IMG/VR virus record: IMGVR_UViG_3300037294_000132
Coordinates: 1-21,934 of that record
Reading direction: 5' to 3' (one strand)
DNA from: a virus
Length of the DNA stretch: 21,934 bases
Under the pieces are notes generated by a model. The model did not search any database, had not been told where the DNA came from, and saw only the letters and a list, made by a program, of their open reading frames with translations. Positions 1 to 20,500 of the stretch are shown here, one piece after another. Numbering within the stretch: the first letter of the stretch is position 1; each line of letters starts with the position of its first letter. Both the position numbers and the translations under genes were made by a program.

Positions 1-362
1 TGTTTTAAACCTACCATGTAAAACTTACCGTTATAGTCCTCAATTGCTACGTGAGGTCTTGCAGATGCTAACAATTTAATCTGTTCTTGTGTTGCCTTAT
101 CTAAAGTTGTTAAGGTTAAATTTAAAGTTGATGTATAAAAAGTTGTTCCGTTTTCTCTTGATGAATTAATTGCAGTTTCTAAAGAAGAATTTCCTTTTAT
201 ATCAAATTTAAAGAATGAAGGTGTACCTGCAATTGCTGTAATTTCTCCAGCAACAATTGTAGCAACTCCTAATGTTCCGTAATCTGCAAAGTAGATAGCT
301 TTTAAACCACCTACGGATGCCTTACAGGGTAGCGCTCTACCCGATGTCAATAAACATGCCAT
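1..362 (-). CDS. partial phage structural protein, possibly tail tube
   Basis: The gene opens at an ATG at 360-362 and stays open for 120 codons to the left edge, so the C-terminus is missing. The protein starts MACLLTSGRALPCKASVGGL and continues with a strand-rich, threonine-rich stretch and a segment ARPHVAIEDYNGKFYMVGLK near the cut. It has no membrane segment or catalytic motif. It is the next gene after the capsid candidate on the same strand, separated by an 88-bp gap with a terminator. A short beta-rich protein beside the capsid gene suggests a tail tube or head decoration protein. That role is an inference from context; the reading frame itself is secure. Confidence 0.6.
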   Translation of the reverse strand, partial: MACLLTSGRALPCKASVGGLKAIYFADYGTLGVATIVAGEITAIAGTPSFFKFDIKGNSSLETAINSSRENGTTFYTSTLNLTLTTLDKATQEQIKLLASARPHVAIEDYNGKFYMVGLK

Positions 363-387
363 AATTTGTATATTTTTTAGTTGTTAA

Positions 388-427
388 ATAAAAAAAATAA
401 GTAAGTAGATTAACTACCTACCTATTT
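388..427 (-). terminator. intrinsic terminator after the capsid gene
   Basis: Read on the minus strand, positions 427-414 and 408-395 form a 14-bp stem with two G-U pairs around a 5-base loop (409-413). Eight T residues follow directly (plus-strand A run at 390-397). It lies 24 bp after the capsid stop codon and 26 bp before the next start, so it probably lowers read-through and makes the capsid gene the most abundant message. Confidence 0.75.
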
Positions 428-450
428 TTATTACTATTAATTTATTTTTA

Positions 451-1389
451 TTAGATTCCGTAAGTAATAATTTCCGTAGGAATTGCATATTGAACAGCAG
501 CAGTGTAACACATTACAAATCTAACGTTTTTAGAACCGTCTATGTCTGCCATATCAATTAGTTTAACCTCATTGTAATCAGACAATAAACCTGTTCCAAA
601 AAATAAGTTAGACTTTAAAGCAGCAACCGCCTTGTTATCATTTAAACCATTTGCAATAACCAATTTAACACCGTCAAAGTATTGAATATCAATATCTTGA
701 TTGTTACCCATTGCCATGAATCCGTTGCCTCCTAAACCGCTTGCTTGGAAACCACCTAATGCACGTTTATAAGCTCTAAATATGTTTTGAGAAACATACA
801 CAAATAACTCCTCGTTACCATATAAAGTTGAAGGTATTTTATCAACTATCTTTCCAAGTTCAGCAATTACGTTTGAAGCATTTACACCACCAGCAATCGC
901 AGTAATTTTTTGACCTGCAAGAACAGCAGCATCAGCAGCTAATAAAGTAGCAAATCCATCAAATGAGCCTGCACCTGCTACACCTCTCCATATATCTTGC
1001 TCTGTTTTTTCTGCTACTTTCGCAGATAATTGTGCGATAAAATAATCCGAGAATGTTTTAGGCAAGTTGTCAAATGCTGAAAAACCCATTGATATCGCTT
1101 CCCAATCTGATTGGAATGGAGTTTTACATAACTCTAAATTTACTTTTAATTCTTTTGGCTGTATAACTTTTTCAGTTAAGGTAACTGTTGAAGTGTCTGC
1201 GAAATCACATGAAGCATTTGCAGTGATGCCATCAATAGCAACCACTTTTAAAACTTCTTTAAATTTAATGTTTGGTTTAATTTCGATTAATCCGTTTGAT
1301 AAAGTGTTTCCACTTAAAAGAGCTAGGGAAACATATTTTCCCGCAAACTCTCCTGCATAAGTTGTTGTAATATTTGTTACTGTTGCCAT
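451..1389 (-). CDS. putative major capsid protein
   Basis: A 312-residue soluble protein with an alpha/beta mix, no signal peptide and no Cys-rich or catalytic motif. It contains an amphipathic stretch around residues 96-136 (FQSDWEAISMGFSAFDNLPK onward, then FIAQLSAKVAEKTEQDIWRG) and a glycine-rich segment near 215-230. Length and position fit a major capsid protein: it follows a prohead protease and a scaffold-like gene in the same operon and is followed by a strong terminator. I do not see an HK97-fold signature that proves it, and another abundant virion protein remains possible. The start ATG lies 6 bp after the upstream stop codon. Confidence 0.65.
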   Translation of the reverse strand: MATVTNITTTYAGEFAGKYVSLALLSGNTLSNGLIEIKPNIKFKEVLKVVAIDGITANASCDFADTSTVTLTEKVIQPKELKVNLELCKTPFQSDWEAISMGFSAFDNLPKTFSDYFIAQLSAKVAEKTEQDIWRGVAGAGSFDGFATLLAADAAVLAGQKITAIAGGVNASNVIAELGKIVDKIPSTLYGNEELFVYVSQNIFRAYKRALGGFQASGLGGNGFMAMGNNQDIDIQYFDGVKLVIANGLNDNKAVAALKSNLFFGTGLLSDYNEVKLIDMADIDGSKNVRFVMCYTAAVQYAIPTEIITYGI

Positions 1390-1395
1390 ATTTTA

Positions 1396-1944
1396 TTAGT
1401 TATTTAATTTATTAAAAATTCTGTTTAATGTGTTGTTTTGTGATTTTCTAACGTAACCATTTGATTCTTTTTTTGCCGATACGTTTTCTGGATTGTGAGA
1501 AATACCTTGTACTTCTGCTAACTCAATTTCCTTAACCTCTACTTTTGCCAGTTTCAATTCGTTAATTTCGTTTCTCAACTTTTCAATTTCAGAGAAAAAA
1601 GTTTCAGTCGATACCGATTCAATTACCTTTTTAGGTGTAGAAGGCTCTGCTTGTAATTCTTCTTCTTCTACAACTTCTGCGGGTGCTTCTGGTTGCTCAG
1701 CGTCTACTTGCTTAATATCAGCAATTACGCCCTCCTCAGAAATTAAAATAGCCATACCATCTTCGGTTAAATATTCTCCTATTGGTAAAGCAACTCTTTC
1801 TTCGTCTGCTACTACAAAAATATCTGAGCCAATTTCAAAGGTTTCAGCCTCTAAGACCGCCCCGTTGTCTAGTTTCATCTGTTCTAACTTTACCTGTATA
1901 CCAAGTAATGTTCGAACTTTATTTAATGTTTCTTTTGTATTCAT
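1396..1944 (-). CDS. putative scaffolding protein
   Basis: A 182-residue acidic protein. The N-terminal 80 residues look folded and end in a beta-rich module (VALPIGEYLTEDGMAILISE). Residues 81-107 are a Glu/Pro/Ala-rich linker, and about 115-145 form a predicted coiled coil (FFSEIEKLRNEINELKLAKV). The tail is basic (RKSQNNTLNRIFNKLNN). An acidic helical protein with a basic C-terminal tail, placed between the protease and the capsid gene, matches the usual design of phage scaffolds, whose basic C-terminus binds the coat protein. No sequence family is recognised, so the role rests on architecture and order. Confidence 0.5.
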   Translation of the reverse strand: MNTKETLNKVRTLLGIQVKLEQMKLDNGAVLEAETFEIGSDIFVVADEERVALPIGEYLTEDGMAILISEEGVIADIKQVDAEQPEAPAEVVEEEELQAEPSTPKKVIESVSTETFFSEIEKLRNEINELKLAKVEVKEIELAEVQGISHNPENVSAKKESNGYVRKSQNNTLNRIFNKLNN

Positions 1945-1989
1945 ATTTATATAATAATTATTAAGTTAAATTTTGTATTTTCGTTTTTA

Positions 1990-2124
1990 TTATTCTTCTG
2001 GTTCTTTACTAATATTACCGATTCCTTGCTTCCAATAATCTGGTGCATGACATTCTTTACCTTGCACTTGCCCACATTCAATAGAGTATGTATTTTTGCA
2101 ATAACAATAAACTGCCCTACTCAT
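1990..2124 (-). CDS. 44-residue Cys-rich protein
   Basis: A small gene whose ATG overlaps the protease stop as TAATG at 2124 and which ends with TAA at 1990-1992. The product has four Cys in a CxC...C...CH arrangement (Cys7, Cys9, Cys17, Cys25, His26), which could bind one zinc ion, followed by a short polar tail ending KEPEE. The overlap suggests translational coupling to the protease. It sits within the head gene block, between protease and scaffold. I recognise no family; a zinc-stabilised minor head protein is only a guess. Confidence 0.6.
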   Translation of the reverse strand: MSRAVYCYCKNTYSIECGQVQGKECHAPDYWKQGIGNISKEPEE

Positions 2125-2693
2125 TATGATAATAATTTTTTAAGTTCGTCAATCATTTTTAATTCAGCTTCATCTTCTCGATTCTCTAATTTATCAGCAA
2201 AATAACCCTGAATGCTAAAGCCTTTTACTTTACCTGTCTTTACGTAGTCGTTCCAAATCTCATCGTTATTAACTTTCACACTCCCCATCCAAGTTCCAAC
2301 TGGAACGTCTAAACCATATAAGGCTGTTTTATCTTTTTCTTTGTCCTCTACTATCCAAGATTCCACCAATGTCAAACCCTCTAATTTACCATCATGCTCT
2401 AGTGTAGAGTTTGATTGATTGCCATTTTGCAAATACATTTGAGAAGCTTTTAAGACAGTTTCTTCTGAAAAAAACACGTAGTACTCCTCGTCTTTATCAC
2501 GTCTGTATATAGGTTTCTTTGGTATTAATAAAGCACCCATTAATAAACGTTTCTCTTTGCTAATTTCAGCAAGTTGTATTTGCTCGCTTTTCAATGCTAT
2601 AAAGTCAGATTCAATAGCGGGGTTTTCTACAACAGAAATTGCTTCAACTCCTATTGCATCATCCTCGTCTAAAATTAATTCAATCATTCTCAT
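2124..2693 (-). CDS. prohead protease, XkdF-like (Peptidase_S78_2)
   Basis: A 189-residue protein matching the XkdF-like phage serine protease family. Visible landmarks are VVENPAIESDFIAL (21-34), the MGALLIPKKPIYRRD segment (52-66), His100 in LEHDGKLEGLTLVESW, the PVGTWMGSVKVNNDEIW block (131-147), and Ser160 in VKGFSIQGYF. In this family a His and a Ser in these contexts are the likely catalytic residues. It should cut the scaffold and trim capsid parts during prohead maturation. Position just upstream of scaffold and capsid genes agrees. The ATG at 2691-2693 is preceded by an AT-rich motif seen at two other late genes. A second in-frame ATG lies two codons in. Confidence 0.8.
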   Translation of the reverse strand: MRMIELILDEDDAIGVEAISVVENPAIESDFIALKSEQIQLAEISKEKRLLMGALLIPKKPIYRRDKDEEYYVFFSEETVLKASQMYLQNGNQSNSTLEHDGKLEGLTLVESWIVEDKEKDKTALYGLDVPVGTWMGSVKVNNDEIWNDYVKTGKVKGFSIQGYFADKLENREDEAELKMIDELKKLLS

Positions 2694-2705
2694 AATTATA
2701 TAATG
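2693..2705 (-). promoter_or_regulatory. recurring AT-rich start motif, copy 1
   Basis: On the minus strand the bases before the protease start read CATTATATAATTATG. The core ATTATATAATTA recurs before the tail chaperone (9585-9601) and upstream of the small terminase (11271-11287). It could be a late promoter element or a start-site enhancer in an organism group that does not use Shine-Dalgarno sites. Confidence 0.35.
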
Positions 2706-2729
2706 TTTTTTAGTTTAATTTTTACATTT

Positions 2730-4634
2730 TTAAATCGATGCACCTGTAATTATATTCCTGTTTAAACTTTGGGATGTTGTAATGTTGTTAGCTACTACAT
2801 AAGCTTCTATTGGTTGCTGTGTTTGACTACCTATTGCAGTTGCTAATTGGTTAGTACTACTAGCACCCACTACATTAAATGCTGGTGGCAAACTTGGAAT
2901 GTTTGGAGTAGATATATTTGGAACTCCTATTCCAGAACTTATAGCACCTGCCTTAGTTTTAGAAACCGCAGATTTAACAGAACTTATAATCCCTACACCT
3001 TGAGCAATAGCACCTGCGATTGTTATAAGGTTTTGAGGAAAACCAATCTTAGAAGATTGAGCAACGTTTTCAGCAGTAGACACACCCGCAGAACCTACAG
3101 CCTCAATACCTTTAAATGTAATACGCTTAATATCCATTATAGTTTCTTTTAAGGCTAAGGCTTGTTTTACTATTAACAAGGCTCTACCTATTCCGCTTTC
3201 TGCGTCTGCAAATTGCGCAATAGCATCAACCACCATCGACTTATCTTTTATTTTTTGGTGTGCTAGTTTTCTTTCTGCTTCTGCAATTTCAATATCTCTA
3301 GTTATATTCGTTTGCCTTGAAGCCTCCATAAATACATCAAGTGCAATTTGTGCATCTACTTTTGCTTTAGTACCTGTATTTGCATTATCTACAATCGCTT
3401 GAAGTCTTGTAGATTCTTGTTCTTTTTCTAACTCATCAATTACTTTTAAAGCCTCTAGTCTTTGTAACTCGTTTTGTATTAATGATTTATTGAAACGCAA
3501 TCTTTCAATACTTAAATTAGATTCACTTTCAGCCTTTGTGTTTGTTAGTTCTATACTCTCTCTATCAAGTGCTAAATCGTTTGCTTTTTGTTCTGAGCGT
3601 ATACCTTCTATTTGCGCTTCTACTCCTGCAAGTTCTTTTAAAGCCTCAATTTGTGCTACTCTAAAACCAACGTTATTTGCGTCTTTTGCTAAGTTTGCAT
3701 TTGCAATTGATAACTGTATTCTTGCCTGTGAAAGCATTGCTTTCTCAACAGAATCTACTGCTATTAATAATTCATCATTTGCTTTTTTACGTACTTCTAT
3801 ACTGTTTCTTTCTTCATCTCTAATCTGTCTTAATTTTTCGGCTTGTCTGTCAAACTTCTCAAATATTAACCCTTGCATTGCTGCTGCAATTTCTGCTGAC
3901 TTAGTTAATTGTGTATTTGCTTGTGCTGTTTTTATAGCGTTTTCAATACTAATTTTACTGACTTCATCAACTATATTTTTACCAATGTTAATAGTTTCAG
4001 TTATTGCTTCTCCAAAGTTTTTAACAACATCAATACCTGCTTTTACTGCTTCTTTTCCTGTGTTAAATATTGCATCTTTAGTTGCTATAATTCCAAGCGT
4101 TAATTCTTTTATTTTTTCTTTATTATCATCTCCAAAAAAAGATTTTTCCCACGCTAACTGAGCCTCTTGCAAACGTAATTTAATACCAAAAAAAGCAAGT
4201 TTTAAAGGTGTAATTACTAGTGTAAGTAAACCACCAAGCACCTTGCCTAAAGCGTTAAAATTTTCTGAACTCTTTGCAACAGCATCGTATACGTTTACTA
4301 ATGCTGTAACCACTTGACCAACAATAATAGATACTGTTTCAAAAGCAATATTAAAAAAGTCTACTGCTCTTTGATTGCCTTCAAACATTTCTTTTAAAGT
4401 TGTAAGTGCAGCAATAACTAAACCAATACCAATGGCTTTTAAAGTAGTTCCAATTGCTCGAATACCACCTGCAACACTTTTTGCAGCAGAGTTTAATCCT
4501 TTAAAAGACTTTTCAGATTTCTTATTAGAATCTACAACTTCTTTATTTAATTCTTCTATTCCTTTAGTTATTTCTTCAACTCCTTTTAAAGCCTTATTGG
4601 TTTTAGCTTCTAATTCAACTATTATTTTTTCCAT
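2730..4634 (-). CDS. tail tape measure protein
   Basis: A 634-residue protein, mostly helical, built like phage tape measures. Residues 1-60 are a coiled coil. Two hydrophobic segments follow (about 60-80, AIGTTLKAIGIGLVIAALTT, and about 100-120), then another near 133-150. A long charged coiled-coil body (about 230-470) comes next, then an Ala/Gly-rich hydrophobic region (about 535-570) and a Ser/Asn/Thr-rich tail. The protein would run along the tail lumen and set tail length; at about 1.5 angstrom per residue this suggests a tail near 95 nm. Its start overlaps the end of a 47-codon gene. It lies after the tail-tip-like genes, the reverse of the common siphovirus order. Confidence 0.85.
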   Translation of the reverse strand: MEKIIVELEAKTNKALKGVEEITKGIEELNKEVVDSNKKSEKSFKGLNSAAKSVAGGIRAIGTTLKAIGIGLVIAALTTLKEMFEGNQRAVDFFNIAFETVSIIVGQVVTALVNVYDAVAKSSENFNALGKVLGGLLTLVITPLKLAFFGIKLRLQEAQLAWEKSFFGDDNKEKIKELTLGIIATKDAIFNTGKEAVKAGIDVVKNFGEAITETINIGKNIVDEVSKISIENAIKTAQANTQLTKSAEIAAAMQGLIFEKFDRQAEKLRQIRDEERNSIEVRKKANDELLIAVDSVEKAMLSQARIQLSIANANLAKDANNVGFRVAQIEALKELAGVEAQIEGIRSEQKANDLALDRESIELTNTKAESESNLSIERLRFNKSLIQNELQRLEALKVIDELEKEQESTRLQAIVDNANTGTKAKVDAQIALDVFMEASRQTNITRDIEIAEAERKLAHQKIKDKSMVVDAIAQFADAESGIGRALLIVKQALALKETIMDIKRITFKGIEAVGSAGVSTAENVAQSSKIGFPQNLITIAGAIAQGVGIISSVKSAVSKTKAGAISSGIGVPNISTPNIPSLPPAFNVVGASSTNQLATAIGSQTQQPIEAYVVANNITTSQSLNRNIITGASI

Positions 4635-4765
4635 TTTAACTCTTGTTTTTGTCTTGTAAATATTTCTTTAAAAGTTTCTGGAAACTTATTTTTTCCTTTT
4701 GCTAATTGCACTATTTCACTTTTGCAATCTGTATTTTTTAATAAAAATAATATGTCTTTTATCAT
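4622..4765 (-). CDS. 47-residue protein coupled to the tape measure gene
   Basis: A tiny gene with ATGA overlap at its start (ATG at 4763-4765 over the TGA of the 694-residue gene) and a 13-bp overlap at its end with the tape measure start. The product is basic, mostly helical and has one Cys (starts MIKDILFLLKNTDCKSEIVQ, ends QELKWKK). The double overlap argues for real translation and coupling to the tape measure. I recognise no family. Position directly before the tape measure would fit a helper of tail assembly, but the sequence does not show it. Confidence 0.55.
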   Translation of the reverse strand: MIKDILFLLKNTDCKSEIVQLAKGKNKFPETFKEIFTRQKQELKWKK

Positions 4766-6846
4766 AAGTCGTTTAGTAATTCTAGTTCAGATTTGCCATT
4801 TTCTAAATTTGTTGTTATTGAATTTATTTTATAAGACTTGCCAAAAATTATAAATTTATCAGCAAGGCTGTAATTTAGCAATATGCTTAAAGGTAAGTAT
4901 GCTGTTGCCTTTGTGATTCTGTTTGATTCGTTAAATACACTTGTAATAGATTGGCTGTGATAGTCTTTAAATAAAGTGTTTGTATTATCCCGACCTTCCC
5001 ATTCGTCTGGCTCTGCATCAAAGTTTAAAGATGGCTGACTAGCAAACGAAACAACATTCATATTGCTATTGCATGGCGCGAAATAATTACTTATTTGTTT
5101 GCTTGAAGTTGCAACATTAGAAGAGTTAACACCATTAACAAATGATATTGACGCTGTTTTTCTCGCTAAATTAAATAGTATTGGTTTACCTATATAAGGC
5201 TCTTGATTATCATCTACACAAAAACCCCACTGTATATCTTTTGTCGCTGAATTGTCCGCATCTATTAGCCTCTCAAACTTCATGTGTTCAAAAGGAATCG
5301 TATAATTAAAAATGTCGCCAGAGAATTTAATATTTGAATCTGTGCTATACTCTATTTTGCCCCATTGTTGGTTAAATAATTGATTATGAACCGATGCAAA
5401 GTAAGTCTGTAACCCTTCATAAGTGTATACAATTTCTCTAAATGGTAACGCTACATTTGATTGGCTTTTTTCTGTGTCAATATGCTTGGTTATATCGTAA
5501 GAAACACCACCGCTATAATAAGAATCTAATGTTTTTACAACTATTATACCGTCTTCTACGTACGCAACAAGGTTAAACATTTTAAAAATAGACGTTAAAA
5601 AGTCTAAAACTTTCATATTAGGTATTTGCTGAAGCATATTAAACTCAAATTGATCCGAAACAGAGAACGATCCAGTTGCATAATTAGCAAGAACAGTCGA
5701 TTGTGTGTCTCTATCTTCATTAAACCCAGAAACAAAGAAATCGACGTTACTAAAGTCAATTGTATTGGTTATTATAATCTGAACAGTATACGCTTCTTCA
5801 TAGAAGATAGGAATAGCCACGTTATTCTGTGAACCTGTAACACGCCCACTATTATAAATAGGTACACCACCTTTAAAAACTATAAAAGAGTATTGTGTAG
5901 TTGTAAATCCTGCTGCGGGTATTACACTTAATACTAAAACATTTACTTGTCGGTTTTGAAATAACGTTAATGCCGTATTTGTTATATCGCTGATGTCCGT
6001 ATTTGTTCCTGTAAAACCTGTTACTCCATAATTAAATGAGGTTAATTGTTCGCCATTAGTAACTACACCCTTTGTTCGGTGCATCCACATAAACAAGTCC
6101 TTAATTGCAACGTTTGTATCGTTAAAAAAATCATTGCTAAATAGTATGTTATACTTTTTTTCTATTGCCTTTATAATTATTAAAACTTTCAAAGCGTATT
6201 TTAATTCATTCCATTTAACCCCACGAATACCACCTGCAGCAGACCAAGATACATTACCACTATCGGCAACCTCTGCACTACTGTCAAAAAACAATCTTTG
6301 CGTATGCGTCAACAAAGGCACTTGTACAGGAGAAGTATACGTTACGCCGTCTACTGTTTTTTCTTGTACTGTTGTTAAGTATCTTTCAATATCAGTAGGT
6401 TTAAAATATAAAGGAGATGGATTTTGCACGTCTTCTTCAAAGTCAAAGTTACTTAACCAGTTTAAGCTTGATAATAAGTCATCGCCTATGGTTTGCTTTA
6501 ATGAAATAGTATTTCCAAAAAAAGTAATCTTATATGTGTGCGCTTTATTATCTTTTAAGTCTACGCCCTCCAATTTAATATAGCCATCTTTGTAAGGTAA
6601 AAAGTTTAATTCTAAATTTGCTTTTACTCTTACCCTTGCATCAAATCCACCTTGTATATCGTTGTTGTAATAGTGTTTAAATATCTTGTTGTTTACACTT
6701 GATGCCGGTACGCTAAACGTTCTAGAAAATTCTGTAAATATTTTGTCAATATCCATAACGTTTTTAATACTGTCAGTAACAACTACGCTCTCATCATTAA
6801 ATAAATCTACTCTTTGCCCTCCAATAAATAACTGTATCTTTTGCAT
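4762..6846 (-). CDS. putative tail tip or baseplate protein
   Basis: A 694-residue soluble protein. The N-terminus (IQLFIGGQRVDLFNDESVVV, then IKNVMDIDKIFTEFSRTFSVPAS) and the YKITFFGNTISLKQTIGDDL segment (105-124) are hallmarks I associate with a large structural protein widespread in Bacteroidota phages, usually placed near the tail tip. The middle (about 290-370) is beta-rich, and the end (SLADKFIIFGKSYKINSI onward) resembles an OB or beta-sandwich edge. The ATG directly follows the upstream stop. Together with the next gene it probably forms the distal tail or baseplate. A receptor-binding role is possible but not shown. Confidence 0.5.
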   Translation of the reverse strand: MQKIQLFIGGQRVDLFNDESVVVTDSIKNVMDIDKIFTEFSRTFSVPASSVNNKIFKHYYNNDIQGGFDARVRVKANLELNFLPYKDGYIKLEGVDLKDNKAHTYKITFFGNTISLKQTIGDDLLSSLNWLSNFDFEEDVQNPSPLYFKPTDIERYLTTVQEKTVDGVTYTSPVQVPLLTHTQRLFFDSSAEVADSGNVSWSAAGGIRGVKWNELKYALKVLIIIKAIEKKYNILFSNDFFNDTNVAIKDLFMWMHRTKGVVTNGEQLTSFNYGVTGFTGTNTDISDITNTALTLFQNRQVNVLVLSVIPAAGFTTTQYSFIVFKGGVPIYNSGRVTGSQNNVAIPIFYEEAYTVQIIITNTIDFSNVDFFVSGFNEDRDTQSTVLANYATGSFSVSDQFEFNMLQQIPNMKVLDFLTSIFKMFNLVAYVEDGIIVVKTLDSYYSGGVSYDITKHIDTEKSQSNVALPFREIVYTYEGLQTYFASVHNQLFNQQWGKIEYSTDSNIKFSGDIFNYTIPFEHMKFERLIDADNSATKDIQWGFCVDDNQEPYIGKPILFNLARKTASISFVNGVNSSNVATSSKQISNYFAPCNSNMNVVSFASQPSLNFDAEPDEWEGRDNTNTLFKDYHSQSITSVFNESNRITKATAYLPLSILLNYSLADKFIIFGKSYKINSITTNLENGKSELELLNDL

Positions 6847-7884
6847 TTATCGAATATTGTTTATTACGTTATAAGAATTTTCAAACTCCATTGTATACTC
6901 TACCAGCCTATCGTTTACGGATGTCTTAAAGGTTATGTCAGACGTTTTAATGTTTACAGGTAGGGTTTGTGGCGTACCTACTAAATTAGTTAACCAAACT
7001 CTCTCAGACAATAACAGTTGTTTAAATATTTCGTTTTGAGATTGGTCCAGATACCCGCTATTTAAAATTATAGATTCGTTACCTGTTAAGTTAAAATCCA
7101 CGTTTACATGACTGTCTACATTGTAAGTGTTATTTGTTTTTAAAATATTACCTTTATATGTTTCCTTCTTTACATTTAATTTATTTACAGATTTTTTAAA
7201 GAAAATACATTCTTGCTTTACACCGTATCTGTTTACAAATGTAATTTTATAGGGATTAAATTTACATTCTGATACTGTTGTTACATTTAAAGTGGTCGTC
7301 CCGTTGTCATCATCCACAACAATACTATCAACATTAACCCCTGCTGTGCTAACATACTCGACTTGTTCTAAACTTTCCGTACTTGATGTGAATGAGTTTA
7401 CAGTTGTACCACCTCCTGTTAAGTTCTGCGTAATAATTGGATTGTTGTTTGTTCTAAAAGGTATTCTATAAGAAGTTCCTTCTAATAAATACACTTGTGT
7501 TTGGTCAATTAGCAAAGTTTTATCATCATCAATTACATCGTTTTCAAAATAAGTATATGCACTAAATGCAATATCTAAATTAGTAACTGTCGCACCTTGC
7601 TGAACCTTGCTAATATTAAATGCTTTAATCACAGTTTTAACCCACGCAGTCTCTCCTCCAAATGCTTCGTTTAATGGTTGTGTTAAGTAGTCCTTAACTA
7701 TTTCCGCAATCTCAAAAGAAATTATATTAGACGCACCCGCTTTATATTTTTTAAATGTATAAGTAGGTGTAGCAGGTAAGTTAAAAATTGTATCTCCTTG
7801 CCATATAAAAACCTCTAAAGTAGCGTAACTAATTGATGCGTTTGTAATCGATACATACTTTGGACTTCTGGAATATATTGCCAT
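6847..7884 (-). CDS. putative tail or baseplate structural protein
   Basis: A 345-residue beta-rich protein with no catalytic motif or membrane segment. It starts MAIYSRSPKYVSI, has a Thr/Ser-rich central region (residues 155-205), and ends with VNIKTSDITFKTSVNDRLVE followed by a short strand. This C-terminal pattern recurs in structural proteins of Bacteroidota phages as I know them. It lies between the neck-like gene and the 694-residue tail protein, abutting both, so the two large proteins probably act in the same substructure of the tail. The exact role cannot be read from the sequence. Confidence 0.45.
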   Translation of the reverse strand: MAIYSRSPKYVSITNASISYATLEVFIWQGDTIFNLPATPTYTFKKYKAGASNIISFEIAEIVKDYLTQPLNEAFGGETAWVKTVIKAFNISKVQQGATVTNLDIAFSAYTYFENDVIDDDKTLLIDQTQVYLLEGTSYRIPFRTNNNPIITQNLTGGGTTVNSFTSSTESLEQVEYVSTAGVNVDSIVVDDDNGTTTLNVTTVSECKFNPYKITFVNRYGVKQECIFFKKSVNKLNVKKETYKGNILKTNNTYNVDSHVNVDFNLTGNESIILNSGYLDQSQNEIFKQLLLSERVWLTNLVGTPQTLPVNIKTSDITFKTSVNDRLVEYTMEFENSYNVINNIR

Positions 7885-7886
7885 TC

Positions 7887-8399
7887 TTATTTTTTTAAAT
7901 TGTCTTTTGTTGCTACTTTAATTAATGCTTCTACGTCTAAAGCGTACGCTTTAATGATGTCTTTATCTATATTTTCAAATGCTTTCTTAAATGGTTTAGT
8001 AAAAAACAAACTAGGCTTTATACCATTAATAAAAATACTTCTTGCAATCATAAATTGTAAAGACTTTCTTGGCAAAAATTTACCGTTCTTATCTTTAGGT
8101 GCTATGCCTTTTCTTACAATCCATTTATCCAATTTACTTGGTGGTGGCATCTTAGTAGTATAACTATAAGGGGTATCATATTTTTTCTCCTTACCACTAA
8201 CTCCAATGTCTTGAAATATTCCGTAATCCTCCATTAAAAAATCTAAACCAAAACTATTTTTGCTGACGTTTAAATCGTACTTTAAACTATTATAAAGTTG
8301 TTTAGAACTATTTTTTTTACCCCTTGTTAAGTTTGCACGTGATTGACTTATAACGTATTTAGCAAACCTATTAAGTTCCGCCTGCACATTATTTAACAT
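7887..8399 (-). CDS. neck / tail completion protein, HK97 gp10-like
   Basis: A 170-residue basic protein resembling the HK97 gp10-like group. It has an N-terminal helix (LNNVQAELNRFAKYVISQSR), then LYNSLKYDLNV, the MEDYGIFQDIGVSGKEKKYD segment (56-75), PPSKLDKWIVRKGI (86-99), and SIFINGIKPSLFFTKPFKKA (121-140). In this family the protein joins head and tail during assembly. Its start overlaps the end of the tail-terminator-like gene by 7 bp, a pairing common in siphoviruses. Confidence 0.6.
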   Translation of the reverse strand: MLNNVQAELNRFAKYVISQSRANLTRGKKNSSKQLYNSLKYDLNVSKNSFGLDFLMEDYGIFQDIGVSGKEKKYDTPYSYTTKMPPPSKLDKWIVRKGIAPKDKNGKFLPRKSLQFMIARSIFINGIKPSLFFTKPFKKAFENIDKDIIKAYALDVEALIKVATKDNLKK

Positions 8400-8848
8400 A
8401 TATCAATCTCATTAGGAATTAACACGTCAAAAGAACACGCCCAACCTGCAACTTCATCTTCAAATCTGTCATAGAATAGCTCAAAACTTGGTGTCCCGTC
8501 TAATTGATATAAATTCTGATGTAAATTACCACCTCGTAAAACTTGCACAAGTTTATTTAATACCACTAATTGTGTGTTAAGTACGTCTTGCTCATTGGTG
8601 TTACATACAAATATATCTAAAACCTCATCTTTAGACATATTGACTATGTCCATTGCTAAAATAGACATACTAAAACGTAAAATATTATCCTCATTTAATA
8701 CACTATTTACCATAATGTGAGAAAGAGGATACATAATTTGTTTGTCTAATGCTACTTTAGTAATGTCGCCAAACGTTACGTTGTTCACATTTGCATCACT
8801 TAGCAATTGTTCTTTTATTTTTTCAGTAACCGAATAAAATCCTTTCAT
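8393..8848 (-). CDS. putative tail terminator-like protein
   Basis: A 151-residue protein with an N-terminal helix, a central block with alternating strands (RFSMSILAMDIVNMSKDEVL) and a C-terminus AGWACSFDVLIPNEIDIC. Size, mixed alpha/beta content and place next to the neck gene fit phage tail terminator (gpU-like) proteins, which cap the tail tube before joining the head. The ATG at 8846-8848 comes immediately after the stop of the chaperone's -1 frame (8849-8851), so translation of this gene would be coupled to frameshifted ribosomes rather than to the zero-frame product, which stops 83 bp earlier. Confidence 0.5.
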   Translation of the reverse strand: MKGFYSVTEKIKEQLLSDANVNNVTFGDITKVALDKQIMYPLSHIMVNSVLNEDNILRFSMSILAMDIVNMSKDEVLDIFVCNTNEQDVLNTQLVVLNKLVQVLRGGNLHQNLYQLDGTPSFELFYDRFEDEVAGWACSFDVLIPNEIDIC

Positions 8849-9585
8849 TTAAAATTTGCTTTTTATATTTTGTGCTTCTAATTCTGCTTTCTCCTTCATA
8901 AAAGAAAGCATTGTAAAACATTGATGTATATTTAGTTCAGTGATATTTTTAAATTTCCTAATATCTCCGTTAGCGAGTGCATAAATTGATTGATACCAGC
9001 CCCACTTTGCGCCGAAGTTAGCTGTTTTTGAATAGCCTCCATCTCCTGCGGATTGTTGGAATAAAGTATCGTATGATTCGCTAATTCTATTCCTAAATTG
9101 TAAAAAAAAAAAAGACTACCAAAGACACAGCCTAAAGGCATATCTTTCATTCTGTCTGAATTTTCTGTATTGTATTTAGCAATATTATACTTTAGTTTTT
9201 GACCGTCCTTAATTGGTCTGTAAAGTACATTCATAGCCACGTGCATCTGTTCCCATTTGCTAGCATTATTATCTAAGTCGATGTACTCTCCTAAACTCAT
9301 ATCATCAAGGTCCGGAACAAATCCGTAATCAATACCGCCCATTGTAAAACGTTGTTGATGCTGTGGATTGCTTTCCATTAACTCGTTTAGTATATCTACA
9401 ATCGCAGAAACACTACTCATTTTTAATTTGTAACTATCAGATAAGGGAATACCACAAAATATCTCAATCATTTTTGCATCTAAGAAATTACCTTCTGGAT
9501 TGTTTTCAGCAACCTTTAAAAACTTTTGATATTGCCCTAGAGTAATTTCATTTAATGTAGTAGGTACGTTTATTTCAATCTTCAT
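8849..9585 (-). CDS. tail assembly chaperone, long -1 frameshift form (GT-like)
   Basis: Predicted 245-residue product made when ribosomes slip back one base at AAATTTA (8956-8950). Residues 1-212 are shared with the short form; then 33 new residues follow: KNITELNIHQCFTMLSF, MKEKAELEAQNIKSKF. The -1 frame stays open from the slip site to a TAA at 8849-8851, which touches the next ATG at 8848. The extension is amphipathic and helical, not random-looking. Many siphoviruses make two such chaperones (lambda gpG and gpGT) by a -1 shift, so the biology is precedented. The slip itself is inferred. Confidence 0.6.
8932..9585 (-). CDS. tail assembly chaperone, short form (G-like)
   Basis: A 217-residue protein with N-terminal LNEITLGQYQKFLKVAENNP, a middle FTMGGIDYGFVPDLDDMSLG, then YIDLD, AMNVLYRPI and a hydrophobic helix PLGCVFGSLFFFYNLGIELA. 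The pattern of a small domain, an SLGEYIDLD motif and an (A)VLYRP motif is what I know from putative tail or baseplate assembly chaperones in phages of this kind. Such chaperones bind the tape measure during tail assembly. A run of 12 T encodes part of the LFFFY segment. The start is preceded by the AT-rich motif that also occurs before other late genes. The frame ends with TAA at 8932-8934, 18 bp after a canonical slip site. Confidence 0.65.
   Translation of the reverse strand: MKIEINVPTTLNEITLGQYQKFLKVAENNPEGNFLDAKMIEIFCGIPLSDSYKLKMSSVSAIVDILNELMESNPQHQQRFTMGGIDYGFVPDLDDMSLGEYIDLDNNASKWEQMHVAMNVLYRPIKDGQKLKYNIAKYNTENSDRMKDMPLGCVFGSLFFFYNLGIELANHTILYSNNPQEMEAIQKQLTSAQSGAGINQFMHSLTEILGNLKISLN
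8950..8956 (-). promoter_or_regulatory. -1 ribosomal slippery heptamer A AAT TTA
   Basis: The minus strand reads AAATTTA at 8956-8950, phased in the zero frame as A AAT TTA, which fits X XXY YYZ exactly. Slipping gives AAA TTT and opens a 33-codon extension ending at the base before the next start codon. A run of five A follows at 8950-8946. I see no strong stem just downstream, so the stimulator, if any, is unclear. Confidence 0.6.
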
Positions 9586-9601
9586 AATTATATAATACTT
9601 T
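9585..9601 (-). promoter_or_regulatory. recurring AT-rich start motif, copy 2
   Basis: The minus strand carries AAAGTATTATATAATTA immediately before and into the chaperone start codon. The same 17 bases occur at 11287-11271, 20 bp upstream of the small terminase start, and a 12-base core occurs before the protease. Confidence 0.4.
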
Positions 9602-9605
9602 TTTT

Positions 9606-9758
9606 CTATTTATTTATAAAAAATCCTTTACAACTTTCGTACGCCTTGACCAACAAAAAGAATTGTTCGTGAGTTCTAGGCTGGTTAATGTTTACTTCCC
9701 TACCTGTTCGGTGATGTATGTAACATTGTATAGTTGCAATCATCTGTAAATTATCCAT
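9606..9758 (-). CDS. 50-residue protein downstream of large terminase
   Basis: The ATG at 9756-9758 shares its first base with the terminase TAA (TAATG), and the frame ends with TAG at 9606-9608. The product (starts MDNLQMIATIQCYIHHRTGR, ends YESCKGFFINK) is small, slightly basic and mostly helical, with two Cys and one HH pair but no clear zinc knuckle. Coupling to the terminase gene argues for translation. I recognise no family. Confidence 0.5.
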   Translation of the reverse strand: MDNLQMIATIQCYIHHRTGREVNINQPRTHEQFFLLVKAYESCKGFFINK

Positions 9759-10963
9759 TATCTTATGTTGTAGTTGCCCGCATTAGGGTTTCGCAAATGG
9801 TATTCAATATTGTATCGTGCGCCATCTATTGCGTGGTTATAATCATCAATATATAATTTACTTGATTTGTCAGAAAAAGAATAGTTGTTTAATTCTTTAG
9901 CAACGTTACTACTATTTGGCTCTAGTATAATTAAATACTCTAGCATCATAGTTACACCCACCTCAATCAATCCTTTCTTGTGTTGTTTAATATTACATCC
10001 ACGATGTTTTAAATCAGCTACAAGTCTAGGGTCTGTTTCTGATATAATAAGTTTATTGCCTACTTTCTGCAATATCATAGAAGCCAAGTCGTCAACTTTT
10101 AATCCATTTTGGTAAATATGTTCTTTTAAATATATTATCTTCTTAGCTTTATCGATTGCCACCTCTGTTAATGTATCTGGGTCAACAGAAAAACCGAAGT
10201 CCATTCCACATGATGTTTGTAATAAATCTGGATTAAATTCTCCAAACTGCCAATTAGTAAAAACAACTCCCTCGGCTTTATCTAACCACCCACCTAATAT
10301 CTTATGCTTATACTTTAAAGGATTTGTTAACCTAATATTCTCAATATTATCTAAAAAGGATTTAGGTAGGTTTAAACGATTATCTAAGTAAGTAGTATGT
10401 ATGTAACAAACATTCCCGACTTCACCGTTAAAACCTTCTTTTACGCCTTTACTCTCAAAGAACTTTTTATATATCCAATGCTCTTTAGTAGTTGGGTTTA
10501 AGATTAATATAATTCTATTTTGTTGAACGTTACTTCTAATCGATAAGTCAATAGTATCGAACTCATTTTCGTCTACCATTTCTTCGGCTTCATCTAAAAC
10601 CCATGTAGAAATCCCTTGCAAAGATTTTAAGTTTGCTGTTTGATTTCCTGCACTTGTTTTTATCCCTCTAAATAGTATTCTGCTTTCTGTTAAGTTGTTT
10701 GTAATCTCTTTTGTCTTAACATCAAAATAAGAAGATGAATCTAATAAATCTATTTTTTCGTTGAACTCTGGAATAATTGAAAGTTCCGCAGATGTCATAG
10801 TGTAACGAGTGTATAAGCAATTGTAACCAACTTTAAACGTATTGGTTGCTTCGATTAAAGTAGTACTATAAGATTTAGCCGAGCCACGCCCACCAGTCAG
10901 AATAAAGTATCTTGCCTGACTAGTACGCAATGGTTCAAACCTTTCATTTATTACTATACTCAA
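9758..10963 (-). CDS. terL: terminase large subunit (PBSX-type)
   Basis: A 401-residue DNA-packaging motor. ATPase: Walker A GGRGSAKS at 24-31, Walker B WVLDEAEE at 121-128 (Asp124, Glu125), coupling motif NPTT near 156-159. Nuclease domain: Asp255 in GMDFGFSVDPDTL, the ISETDPRLV segment (307-315), and Asp380 in NHAIDGARYNIEYH, the expected metal-binding acids of the RNase H-like fold. Length is normal for the family. It docks on the portal and cuts and pumps DNA into the prohead. The small terminase ends one base before its ATG, and a 50-codon gene overlaps its end. No portal gene follows it in this window, which is unusual. Confidence 0.9.
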   Translation of the reverse strand: MSIVINERFEPLRTSQARYFILTGGRGSAKSYSTTLIEATNTFKVGYNCLYTRYTMTSAELSIIPEFNEKIDLLDSSSYFDVKTKEITNNLTESRILFRGIKTSAGNQTANLKSLQGISTWVLDEAEEMVDENEFDTIDLSIRSNVQQNRIILILNPTTKEHWIYKKFFESKGVKEGFNGEVGNVCYIHTTYLDNRLNLPKSFLDNIENIRLTNPLKYKHKILGGWLDKAEGVVFTNWQFGEFNPDLLQTSCGMDFGFSVDPDTLTEVAIDKAKKIIYLKEHIYQNGLKVDDLASMILQKVGNKLIISETDPRLVADLKHRGCNIKQHKKGLIEVGVTMMLEYLIILEPNSSNVAKELNNYSFSDKSSKLYIDDYNHAIDGARYNIEYHLRNPNAGNYNIR

Positions 10964-11251
10964 TTACTCAGATTTTTTAAAATAGATTGTAGGTATTGTT
11001 ATACTGTCCCCGTTAGTAGTTACATCTAGAGTATCTTTAGGTTTACCAAGATAATACTCAAGGAATAACTTTGCTGCTGTAACATCCCTATCATCAATAG
11101 ACTTTTTATATATCATTTGAATTACCTTAATAACATCTTCTTTAGTTGATGCTTCTTGTAGTGCCTCCTTATATTCATTTTTACGCTTGTCTATTACGCC
11201 TTCCTTAGTCTTAGTACTATGTCCACCGTTTTCTGCCCTTTTATCTGCCAT
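10964..11251 (-). CDS. terS: putative terminase small subunit
   Basis: A 95-residue basic protein directly before the large terminase with no gap. Most of the chain is helical (KNEYKEALQEASTKEDVIKV), and the C-terminal part AAKLFLEYYLGKPKDTLDVT followed by a short strand resembles the end of small-terminase-like proteins of Bacteroidota phages as I recall them. The small subunit would recognise the packaging site and start DNA loading. A classic N-terminal helix-turn-helix is not obvious, so the call rests on position and the C-terminal motif. Confidence 0.65.
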   Translation of the reverse strand: MADKRAENGGHSTKTKEGVIDKRKNEYKEALQEASTKEDVIKVIQMIYKKSIDDRDVTAAKLFLEYYLGKPKDTLDVTTNGDSITIPTIYFKKSE

Positions 11252-17080: not shown

Positions 17081-18886
17081 ATGAACAACTTTATAGAATG
17101 GAGTTCGTTAGAACTAAAAAAAACAAGTGGTAAGGAAAAGATATCCTGTCCAACCTGCGAAACTAGTAAACATAGAAAAGGTGATACCTCAATACAAATA
17201 AACCATTCAGAGGGGTTTGGTAAGTGTTTTAGGTGTGAGAGCCTAACCTTTAGAGAAAGTGAAAGTAAAAAAGTAAAGGATAAAGAATATAAGTTACCTG
17301 TTCAAACTTGGAAAAATTATACTAATTTATCTGATAAAATGGTGAGATTTATAGAGGATACCAGAAAGATAAACCAAAATACTTTAAAAGCTTTAAACGT
17401 TACCGAAGAATTATTTTATCAGCCAAAACAAGGTAAGGAGGTAAATAATATTGTTTTTAACTATTTTGAGAAAGACGTTTTAGTTAACAAGAAATATAGG
17501 GATGGAGCTAAAAACTTTATACAATCTGCTGGCACTCGTTCTATATTTTATAACATCAATTCTGTTATTGGCGAAAAGGAAGTTTGGATTTGCGAAGGGG
17601 AATTTGACGTTTTAGCACTTCATCAAATTGGTATTAAAAACGCAATATCAGTTCCAAATGGTGCGAATGATAACGATGATTACTGGTTAAATTCTAAAGA
17701 ATACTTAAAAGACGTAAAAAAATTTATTATTGCAGTTGATAACGATGAGAAAGGAAATGACTTAAAAGAGAAGATTGCGCAACGTTTAGGACGTTTTAGG
17801 TGTGAGTATATAGAATTTGTAAATAAAGACGCTAACGGCGACCTAATAGGGCAAATTTTGCATGATACAGTTAAAAAGCGTAAACGATTTCCAGTAAGTG
17901 GAACATTTAGCGTTTCTGAATTAAAAAAAGGTATATTAGAACTCTATGACAATGGTTTGCCAGATACTTTAAAACCTAAGGCATATTATTTTAGACAATT
18001 TAAAGAATGTTTCTCAGTTATGCGTGGGCAATTAACTACGGTAACTGGTATTCCTTCACATGGAAAATCAAACTTTACAGATTGGCTTGCATTAAATTTA
18101 ATAAATGATTATGATTTAAAGGGGTCTTGGTTTTCGCCAGAGCATTCTCCTATGGCACTTTACCAGACTAATTTAATGGAGAAAGTGATAGGACGTAACT
18201 TTTGGAAGGATAAAGAAACAACGCAAGGAACTGCCCCACGAATTACTAGAGATGAAATAGATAAATATGAAGAATGGGCAAATGAAAAAATATACTTAAC
18301 AGGTGCGGAAGGGGACACGTTACCAACCTGGGATTGGTTACTTGAAAAATTTAAAGAGCAAATGATTTCTTTTGGAATTGATATATTTGTGATTGATGCA
18401 TTTAACAAGGTACTTTTGCCAAATGGAAACAAGATTGACCAGATTAACATAGTGTTAACTAAACTTACACACTTTGCACAATCAAACAATGTTTTAATTA
18501 TATTGGTTGCCCATCCTACTAAAATGCAAAAAAACGAAGCAGGAATTTATAACGTTCCCGATTTGTACAGTGTTAGCGGTTCGGCTGATTTTAGAAATCA
18601 AACTCATAACGGATTTTCTATTTACCGAACATGGGAGGACGTGGAAAATAATATAGAGAATACTACCACGTTTTACAACATGAAAACAAAGTATAATTTT
18701 CAAGGGGATATAGGCTCGAGCGTAGACTTTAATTACTCTGAGGTTAACGGTCGTTATTATGAAAAAGATACACAAGAGCCTCTATTTAGTTTAATTGATA
18801 TTAGTGAAGAGTATATGAAAGAAAAAGAAATATTGCCTAAAACAACTGTAAAAGATGCCTTTGATATTGATGATTGCCCTTTTTAA
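17081..18886 (+). CDS. bifunctional DNA primase-helicase (T7 gp4-like)
   Basis: 601 residues. Zinc-binding domain: CPTC (23-26) and CFRC (49-52). TOPRIM primase domain: WICEGEFDVLALHQ with Glu172, and VDNDEKG with Asp220 and Asp222. SF4 helicase domain: Walker A GIPSHGKS (323-330), SPE with likely catalytic Glu354, Walker B IDIFVIDA (433-440, Asp439), and VAHPTK with His478. The order zinc, TOPRIM, ring helicase matches T7 gp4 and Twinkle. It would unwind and prime at the phage fork. The C-terminus DAFDIDDCPF is an acidic tip ending in Phe, like that of the SSB here. Start two bases after the previous stop. Confidence 0.92.
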   Translation: MNNFIEWSSLELKKTSGKEKISCPTCETSKHRKGDTSIQINHSEGFGKCFRCESLTFRESESKKVKDKEYKLPVQTWKNYTNLSDKMVRFIEDTRKINQNTLKALNVTEELFYQPKQGKEVNNIVFNYFEKDVLVNKKYRDGAKNFIQSAGTRSIFYNINSVIGEKEVWICEGEFDVLALHQIGIKNAISVPNGANDNDDYWLNSKEYLKDVKKFIIAVDNDEKGNDLKEKIAQRLGRFRCEYIEFVNKDANGDLIGQILHDTVKKRKRFPVSGTFSVSELKKGILELYDNGLPDTLKPKAYYFRQFKECFSVMRGQLTTVTGIPSHGKSNFTDWLALNLINDYDLKGSWFSPEHSPMALYQTNLMEKVIGRNFWKDKETTQGTAPRITRDEIDKYEEWANEKIYLTGAEGDTLPTWDWLLEKFKEQMISFGIDIFVIDAFNKVLLPNGNKIDQINIVLTKLTHFAQSNNVLIILVAHPTKMQKNEAGIYNVPDLYSVSGSADFRNQTHNGFSIYRTWEDVENNIENTTTFYNMKTKYNFQGDIGSSVDFNYSEVNGRYYEKDTQEPLFSLIDISEEYMKEKEILPKTTVKDAFDIDDCPF

Positions 18887-19846: not shown

Positions 19847-20500
19847 ATGAAAAAGTACAAAATATTAAATTTATACGCTTGTTTAGGTGGTAATCGTTAC
19901 AAGTGGGATGAAGTTTATAGTAACTTAGAGGTTACAGCTGTAGAACTTGACCCAGAATTAGCAAGAATGTACCAGGAGCGTTTTCCTAATGATATTGTAA
20001 TTGTAGCGGATGCGCATAAGTATCTATTAAATAATTATAAAGAATTTGATTTTATATGGAGTTCGCCTCCTTGCCCAACTCATAGTAGAATACAAACAAG
20101 TTTAAAAGACAGGGATACATTTACTCCTTATTATCCAGATATGAAACTATATGAAGAAGTTATTTTTTTAGAACAATTTTTTAAAGGAAAGTATTGTGTA
20201 GAAAATGTAATACCTTATTATAAATTATTAATACCAGGTCATAAAAGAGATAGACATATTTATTGGACAAACTTTAATTTGCCAAATGTTTTATCAAGTA
20301 GGAGTGAAAGTATTGGGGGTTTAAATGAACATAAAAGACTAGAGGTGTTTCACGAATATAAATGCAAGGCTGGAATTGCTGGTTACAGAGATGTATTAAG
20401 AAATCTGGTAGATTATGAAGCAGGAAAAACGATTTTAGAAACAGCTTTCGAAATAGTAATAAAGCAAAAGGTTAATCAAGTAGATATGTTTCCAGTTTAA
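19847..20500 (+). CDS. phage-type DNA cytosine-5 methyltransferase
   Basis: 217 residues. Motif I ILNLYACLGGN (6-16, variant of FAGxGG), an acidic VELDPE (32-37), motif IV SSPPCPTHSRI with catalytic Cys76, motif VI CVENVIPYY (117-125) with Glu119, and a motif VIII-like RHIYWTNF (136-143). The rest is short: a full target-recognition domain and motif X are not clear, as in compact phage C5 methylases. The last residues QVDMFPV (211-217) fit the sliding-clamp-binding motif. It probably protects phage DNA from host restriction. No partner nuclease is nearby, so a solitary enzyme. Confidence 0.8.
   Translation: MKKYKILNLYACLGGNRYKWDEVYSNLEVTAVELDPELARMYQERFPNDIVIVADAHKYLLNNYKEFDFIWSSPPCPTHSRIQTSLKDRDTFTPYYPDMKLYEEVIFLEQFFKGKYCVENVIPYYKLLIPGHKRDRHIYWTNFNLPNVLSSRSESIGGLNEHKRLEVFHEYKCKAGIAGYRDVLRNLVDYEAGKTILETAFEIVIKQKVNQVDMFPV

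Follow-up and report, generated by a model that had tools for sequence, protein, structure and literature searches.

A conserved poly-T frame transition and a likely two-product gene in the late operon of flavobacterial phages

Ribosomal slippage is a known mechanism of phage tail assembly chaperones, among which E/E′ of P2 stand alongside gpG/gpGT of phage lambda. The lambda pair arises from one start codon, a −1 slip at a heptamer of the form X XXY YYZ yielding a minor long form that shares its N-terminal domain with the short form and carries an additional C-terminal domain (PMC5009743). Two product lengths are also made from Thermus thermophilus dnaX, in which slippage of RNA polymerase on a homopolymer of 9 has been demonstrated; a run of 9 A or T is the published length for efficient slippage by bacterial RNA polymerase (PMC5009743).

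The gene described here lies in the late operon of a marine flavobacterial phage, within the 21,934 nucleotides of DNA that were analyzed (the window). As in lambda gpG/gpGT, a conserved in-phase heptamer joins a zero-frame and a −1 ORF, the second of which has no start codon. Unlike the lambda pair, the gene has no detectable sequence relation to gpG/gpGT, slips ∼56 codons before the zero-frame stop, contains a T run of 9 or more and is not adjacent to the likely tape measure gene. It shares with dnaX a homopolymer of 9 or more and two (here predicted) product lengths, although the proteins are unrelated and polymerase slippage has been shown in dnaX only. A −1 slip at the poly-T run, generating two products from one gene, is the likely explanation for the arrangement as a whole.

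One start codon and two reading frames

The minus-strand ORF of 217 residues, the −1 frame abutting the next ATG and the 83-base gap left by the zero frame are all as described in the original prediction (Table 1). The zero frame stops with TAA at 8934–8932 and the −1 frame with TAA at 8851–8849. The −1 frame is open from a TAG at 9118–9116, immediately upstream of the poly-T run, and not merely over its last 33 codons as had been proposed; the true extension is 84 residues, with the slip at 9113–9102, ∼150 bases upstream of the place first given. The long product comprises zero-frame residues 1–161 followed by the 84-residue tail (9103–8852), a total of 245 aa. The predicted length of 245 residues is thus correct but its sequence is not, as ∼50 residues (∼162–211) differ between the two models (LQFRNRISESYDTLFQQSAGDGGYSKTANFGAKWGWYQSIYALANGDIRKF versus YNLGIELANHTILYSNNPQEMEAIQKQLTSAQSGAGINQFMHSLTEILGNL); because both give 245 aa, product length alone cannot discriminate between them. 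Separate initiation of the −1 ORF was considered and is unlikely, since it contains no ATG before tail codon 64.

Table 1. Features of the frameshifted locus and its surroundings in the window.
Feature	Position	Strand	Basis
Zero-frame ORF, 217 aa (short product)	8932..9585	−	ORF reading and 80 IMG/VR homologues
12-T run on the coding strand; frame-0 codons CTT TTT TTT TTT TAC	9102..9113	−	Sequence
Slip heptamer T TTT TTT, in phase, codons 159.3–161	9103..9109	−	Conservation
Second in-phase register of the poly-T heptamer	9112–9106	−	Sequence
−1 extension, 84 codons, LQFRNRISESYDTLF...KWGWYQSIYALANGD...IKSKF and TAA	8849..9103	−	Homologues
Dual-reading overlap of frames 0 and −1, ∼56 codons	8935..9102	−	Position-wise variation
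Possible stimulatory hairpin GGAAUA...UAUUCC, ∼9 nt 3′ of the heptamer	9058..9093	−	Window clade only
A AAT TTA of the original prediction; not a conserved slip site	8950..8956	−	Relatives
Next gene, 151 aa, phrog_30964 (function unknown); ATG at 8848 abuts the −1 stop	8393..8848	−	
634-aa gene, likely the tape measure, 4.3 kb downstream	2730..4634	−	Composition by eye

In the proposed mechanism, most decoding from the single start codon would give the 217-aa protein, and a fraction would slip back one base on T TTT TTT (9109–9103 or the overlapping register 9112–9106) and continue in the −1 frame to give the 245-aa protein, which would end against the next gene with an 84-aa, mainly helical C-terminal domain. 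Both products are presumably made in the cell, at some ratio.

A scan of viral contigs (IMG/VR) identified 80 loci that match residues 1–217 at 71–81% identity. The poly-T run at frame-0 codons 158–161 is retained in every one of them. The −1 frame likewise stays open in each as far as its end or the contig end, encoding a conserved protein (LQFRxRxxExYDxLF...KWGWYQSIYxLAxGDI...KEKAExE...IKxKF). Two further scans, using P12024L-like phages (30% identity) and the −1 tail alone as queries, yielded 63 and 80 loci, and the loci of all scans were pooled to 154 distinct sequences. Every one of the 154 distinct homologues, down to ∼27% identity and including the 63 distinct close relatives, has an in-phase T TTT TTN at the poly-T run, compared with 45 of 154 for the runner-up heptamer position, and the first six columns of the poly-T heptamer show zero parsimony changes. 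Across the pooled sequences, the −1 tail measures 80–92 aa wherever it is complete, and frame 0 runs on for 16–84 codons past the slip. The family corresponds to phrog_32199, that of P12024S gp38 (function unknown), which matches residues 5–179 of the window gene with an E value of 3.2e-22 and also matches all 33 members of set A4.

The Nonlabens (Persicivirga) phages P12024S and P12024L have a homologous N-domain (30% identity), a homologous −1 tail and the same T TTT TTT, there with 9 T, but differ from the window gene in that their zero frame ends ∼25 codons after the slip. Genes 38/39 of P12024S and 40/41 of P12024L (JQ823122, JQ823123; L082, L083 4001–4695) were deposited separately as hypothetical, with no frameshift noted; each pair represents a single frameshifted gene, of which it covers the zero frame and part of the −1 tail. 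No paper on frameshifting in this gene family was found in the openly licensed literature searched. The hosts of these isolates, together with one homologous locus within a Winogradskyella metagenome-assembled genome (MAG), agree with the earlier assignment to a Bacteroidota phage. That MAG was the only matching genome in a prophage survey (∼400 genomes drawn in each of the phylum and order searches), which suggests mostly virulent phages.

Position-wise variation shows −1 coding downstream of the poly-T run and well before A AAT TTA. Changes counted on a tree at frame-0 codon positions 1, 2 and 3 number 385, 237 and 1171 over codons 1–157, where third positions vary, and 69, 153 and 109 over codons 176–205, where the second position (the −1 wobble position) varies most (Fisher P = 1e-41 for 237:1171 versus 153:109). 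Heterozygosity gives the same pattern. If only frame 0 were coding, 5.5 −1 stops would be expected per sequence over the overlap, and if only the −1 frame were coding, 2.6 frame-0 stops; neither kind occurs in the 63 distinct close relatives, which are related and so are not independent trials. Frame 0 too is constrained at codons 162–175 and 206–217, where second-position rates are low, with little constraint in between. In contig L065 (1136–1786), frame 0 meets a TAA seven codons past the slip and the −1 frame is intact; together with the early zero-frame end in P12024S, this suggests that some members of the family can do without the frame-0 extension. In the −1 frame, the bases of the L065 TAA belong to the sense codons GTA ATT; this is one contig, and an error is possible. 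These comparisons show that the architecture is conserved and under selection, and they strongly support the earlier proposal of a conserved −1 frameshift that lengthens the gene to 245 residues and closes the gap.

Phages that carry both domains in a single frame provide an independent check on the junction. Duneviridae phages and the Microcystis phage Mea-Yong924-1 encode the same two domains in one uninterrupted ORF of 274–301 aa, with profile homology over both domains and the Phe-Phe junction; unlike the window gene, they need no frameshift. The Duneviridae protein is phrog_25418, from Flavobacterium phages 23T, FPSV-F7 and laban6-1 and Cellulophaga phage Ingeline_1. The N-domain profile matches the single-ORF protein up to the Phe-Phe at the poly-T run (probability 95, E = 2.5e-8), and the −1 tail profile alone gives no significant match to it. 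The fusion joined at the poly-T run matches phrog_25418 over both domains (hhalign probability 97.7, E = 1.5e-12). Sliding the join downstream by 10, 20, 30, 40 and 51 codons lowers the score from 77.7 to 68.2, 62.1, 59.2, 53.5 and 53.6, the last being the value for a join at A AAT TTA. The better match with the poly-T join establishes the −1 tail as the C-terminal domain of this protein and places the join at the poly-T run. Flavobacterium phage 6H gp10 (191 aa; L230 10352–10927) is a frame-disrupted version of a 293-aa single ORF that is intact in its close relatives 23T and FPSV-F7 (L232, L233 1501–2382). A split of gp10 at the same junction was considered and rejected, as its disruption lies upstream of the junction and is a mutation or a sequencing error.

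Likely role in tail assembly

The frameshift, the position in the late structural operon and the analogy to lambda gpG/gpGT point to the short form as the most likely main chaperone of tail assembly; the long form would be a minor chaperone whose extra domain recruits another tail component. The likeness to gpG/gpGT noted in the original prediction is a fair functional analogy, and the gene may well work like that pair, but its identity as a tail chaperone is inferred only. Because the likely tape measure gene is not adjacent, the gene is compared with the gpG/gpGT class rather than filed as a member of it. Four ORFs and 4.3 kb lie between the two genes, so the frameshifted gene is not directly upstream. 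The 634-aa protein that is likely the tape measure has a weak match to phrog_21537, ‘virion structural protein’ (E = 4.5e-5).

The main alternative is a real frameshift in a protein that is not a tail assembly chaperone, such as a neck or other assembly protein. We regard this as the less probable assignment but a serious one. It is consistent with the intervening ORFs, with the lack of any match to a Pfam or NCBIfam tail-chaperone family, and with the single-ORF Duneviridae homologues, which make the long form only and are located after the portal and adaptor genes. As single-ORF relatives make only the long form, the two-product ratio is not needed everywhere. Against it, tail chaperones typically show a two-product −1 frameshift of this kind within a late operon (PMC5009743), and there is a weak fold likeness to one protein so labeled. 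This likeness emerged when structures of the N-domain and the −1 tail were predicted separately. The N-domain model has a mean pLDDT of 79.5, low only at 192–217, and its Foldseek neighbors among viral proteins are mostly unnamed, the exception being the weak match labeled tail assembly chaperone (E = 0.04, TM ∼0.4); solved structures (PDB) gave no sequence or clear fold match. The −1 tail model consists of helices (pLDDT 71.0) and found one chance-level match among solved structures (E = 0.065) and unnamed proteins only among viral structures.

The late gene order of the window (3–11251) is unusual: the frameshifted gene and tail-type genes follow terminase and precede protease and capsid. 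An XkdF-type protease (2124–2693; PF14550, E = 2e-14) and a likely capsid gene (451–1389) are both downstream of the likely tape measure gene. By eye, the 151-aa gene that follows the frameshifted gene resembles a gene of 150–200 aa that follows the single-ORF homologues in Ingeline_1 and the Microcystis phage; neither this likeness nor synteny of the next genes with Duneviridae was detectable by profile comparison. Elsewhere in the window, also by eye, the product of 19847–20500 looks like a DNA cytosine methyltransferase (PPCPTHSR motif), and 17081–18886 encodes a 601-aa protein resembling a primase-helicase, with a zinc-finger-like stretch at its N-terminus.

Slippage by the ribosome or by RNA polymerase

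By default the ribosome is taken to slip on T TTT TTT, in line with the mechanism known for tail chaperones. The long product could instead be made by RNA polymerase inserting one U in the run of 9–12 T, and comparative sequence cannot separate the two; we consider the polymerase mechanism a serious rival, though the less likely of the two. An uninterrupted T-run of 9 or more is present at the frame transition in all 154 distinct homologues (9, 10 or 12 T, exactly 9 in 102), and this minimum equals the published length for efficient polymerase slippage (PMC5009743). Every sequence of the window clade has a full T TTT TTT in the upstream register (45 of 63), the downstream register (24 of 63) or both, and none of the 63 has only T TTT TTC or T TTT TTG. 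TTC, which encodes 29% of the Phe residues in the rest of the gene, is absent at codon 160 in the window clade and at the two slip codons in a second group of homologues. On the other hand, an in-phase T TTT TTT with its flanking residues (an aliphatic xTT before, a Tyr TAY after) gives 9 T automatically, so that the T9 is not an independent observation.

A downstream stimulatory structure would favor the ribosome. A hairpin that is possibly stimulatory lies at suitable spacing in the window clade, where 88% of cells are paired and slid registers reach at most 60%, but that clade shows no compensatory changes. The hairpin is absent in distant relatives, which have no conserved downstream stimulatory structure, a point for the polymerase; RNAalifold returned no supported consensus structure. 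That RNA polymerase slippage on the invariably retained run of 9 or more T, rather than the ribosome, sets the ratio of short to long product, with the family elsewhere having fused the two frames into one ORF, is a shade more doubtful still.

Improbable readings and implications

A slip at A AAT TTA (8956–8950), the site originally predicted, is very improbable. The motif is in phase in the window genome as claimed, and A AAT TTG occupies the same place in 22 of the 63 relatives; however, just 1 of the 63 has the exact heptamer, 23 have some X XXY YYZ at that position, and 40 have lost the motif. Homologues were expected to keep both this heptamer and an open −1 frame; only the frame is kept. 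A AAT TTA spans codons 210–212, later than the −1 coding signature in codons 176–205, so −1 coding is already in force upstream of it, and a fusion joined there fits the single-ORF homologues far worse. The gene contains five in-phase X XXY YYZ heptamers (9520, 9112, 9109, 8956 and 8953), and in AT-rich DNA one near the stop is thus little better than chance. By the criterion set in the original prediction, homologues lacking the heptamer refute A AAT TTA as the conserved site.

Homopolymer runs are error-prone and related phages have an intact single ORF, but a sequencing or assembly indel or a broken gene is the least credible reading of all and is refuted by conservation, the same two-frame arrangement recurring in 154 distinct sequences from many studies, including two isolate genomes, and the 63 distinct close relatives having no stop in either frame across the overlap.

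Frameshifting is a known trick of phage tail-building genes, and here it appears in a new family annotated only as unknown. The analysis identifies as frameshifted a gene of marine flavobacterial phages, a large group that is mostly uncultured, and supplies the correct long product of this gene, whose halves have been deposited as two hypothetical genes or as one truncated gene. With its T-run of 9 or more, the gene lends itself to a direct test of ribosomal versus polymerase slippage, and the single-ORF versions within the family allow frameshift-dependent forms to be compared with naturally fused ones.
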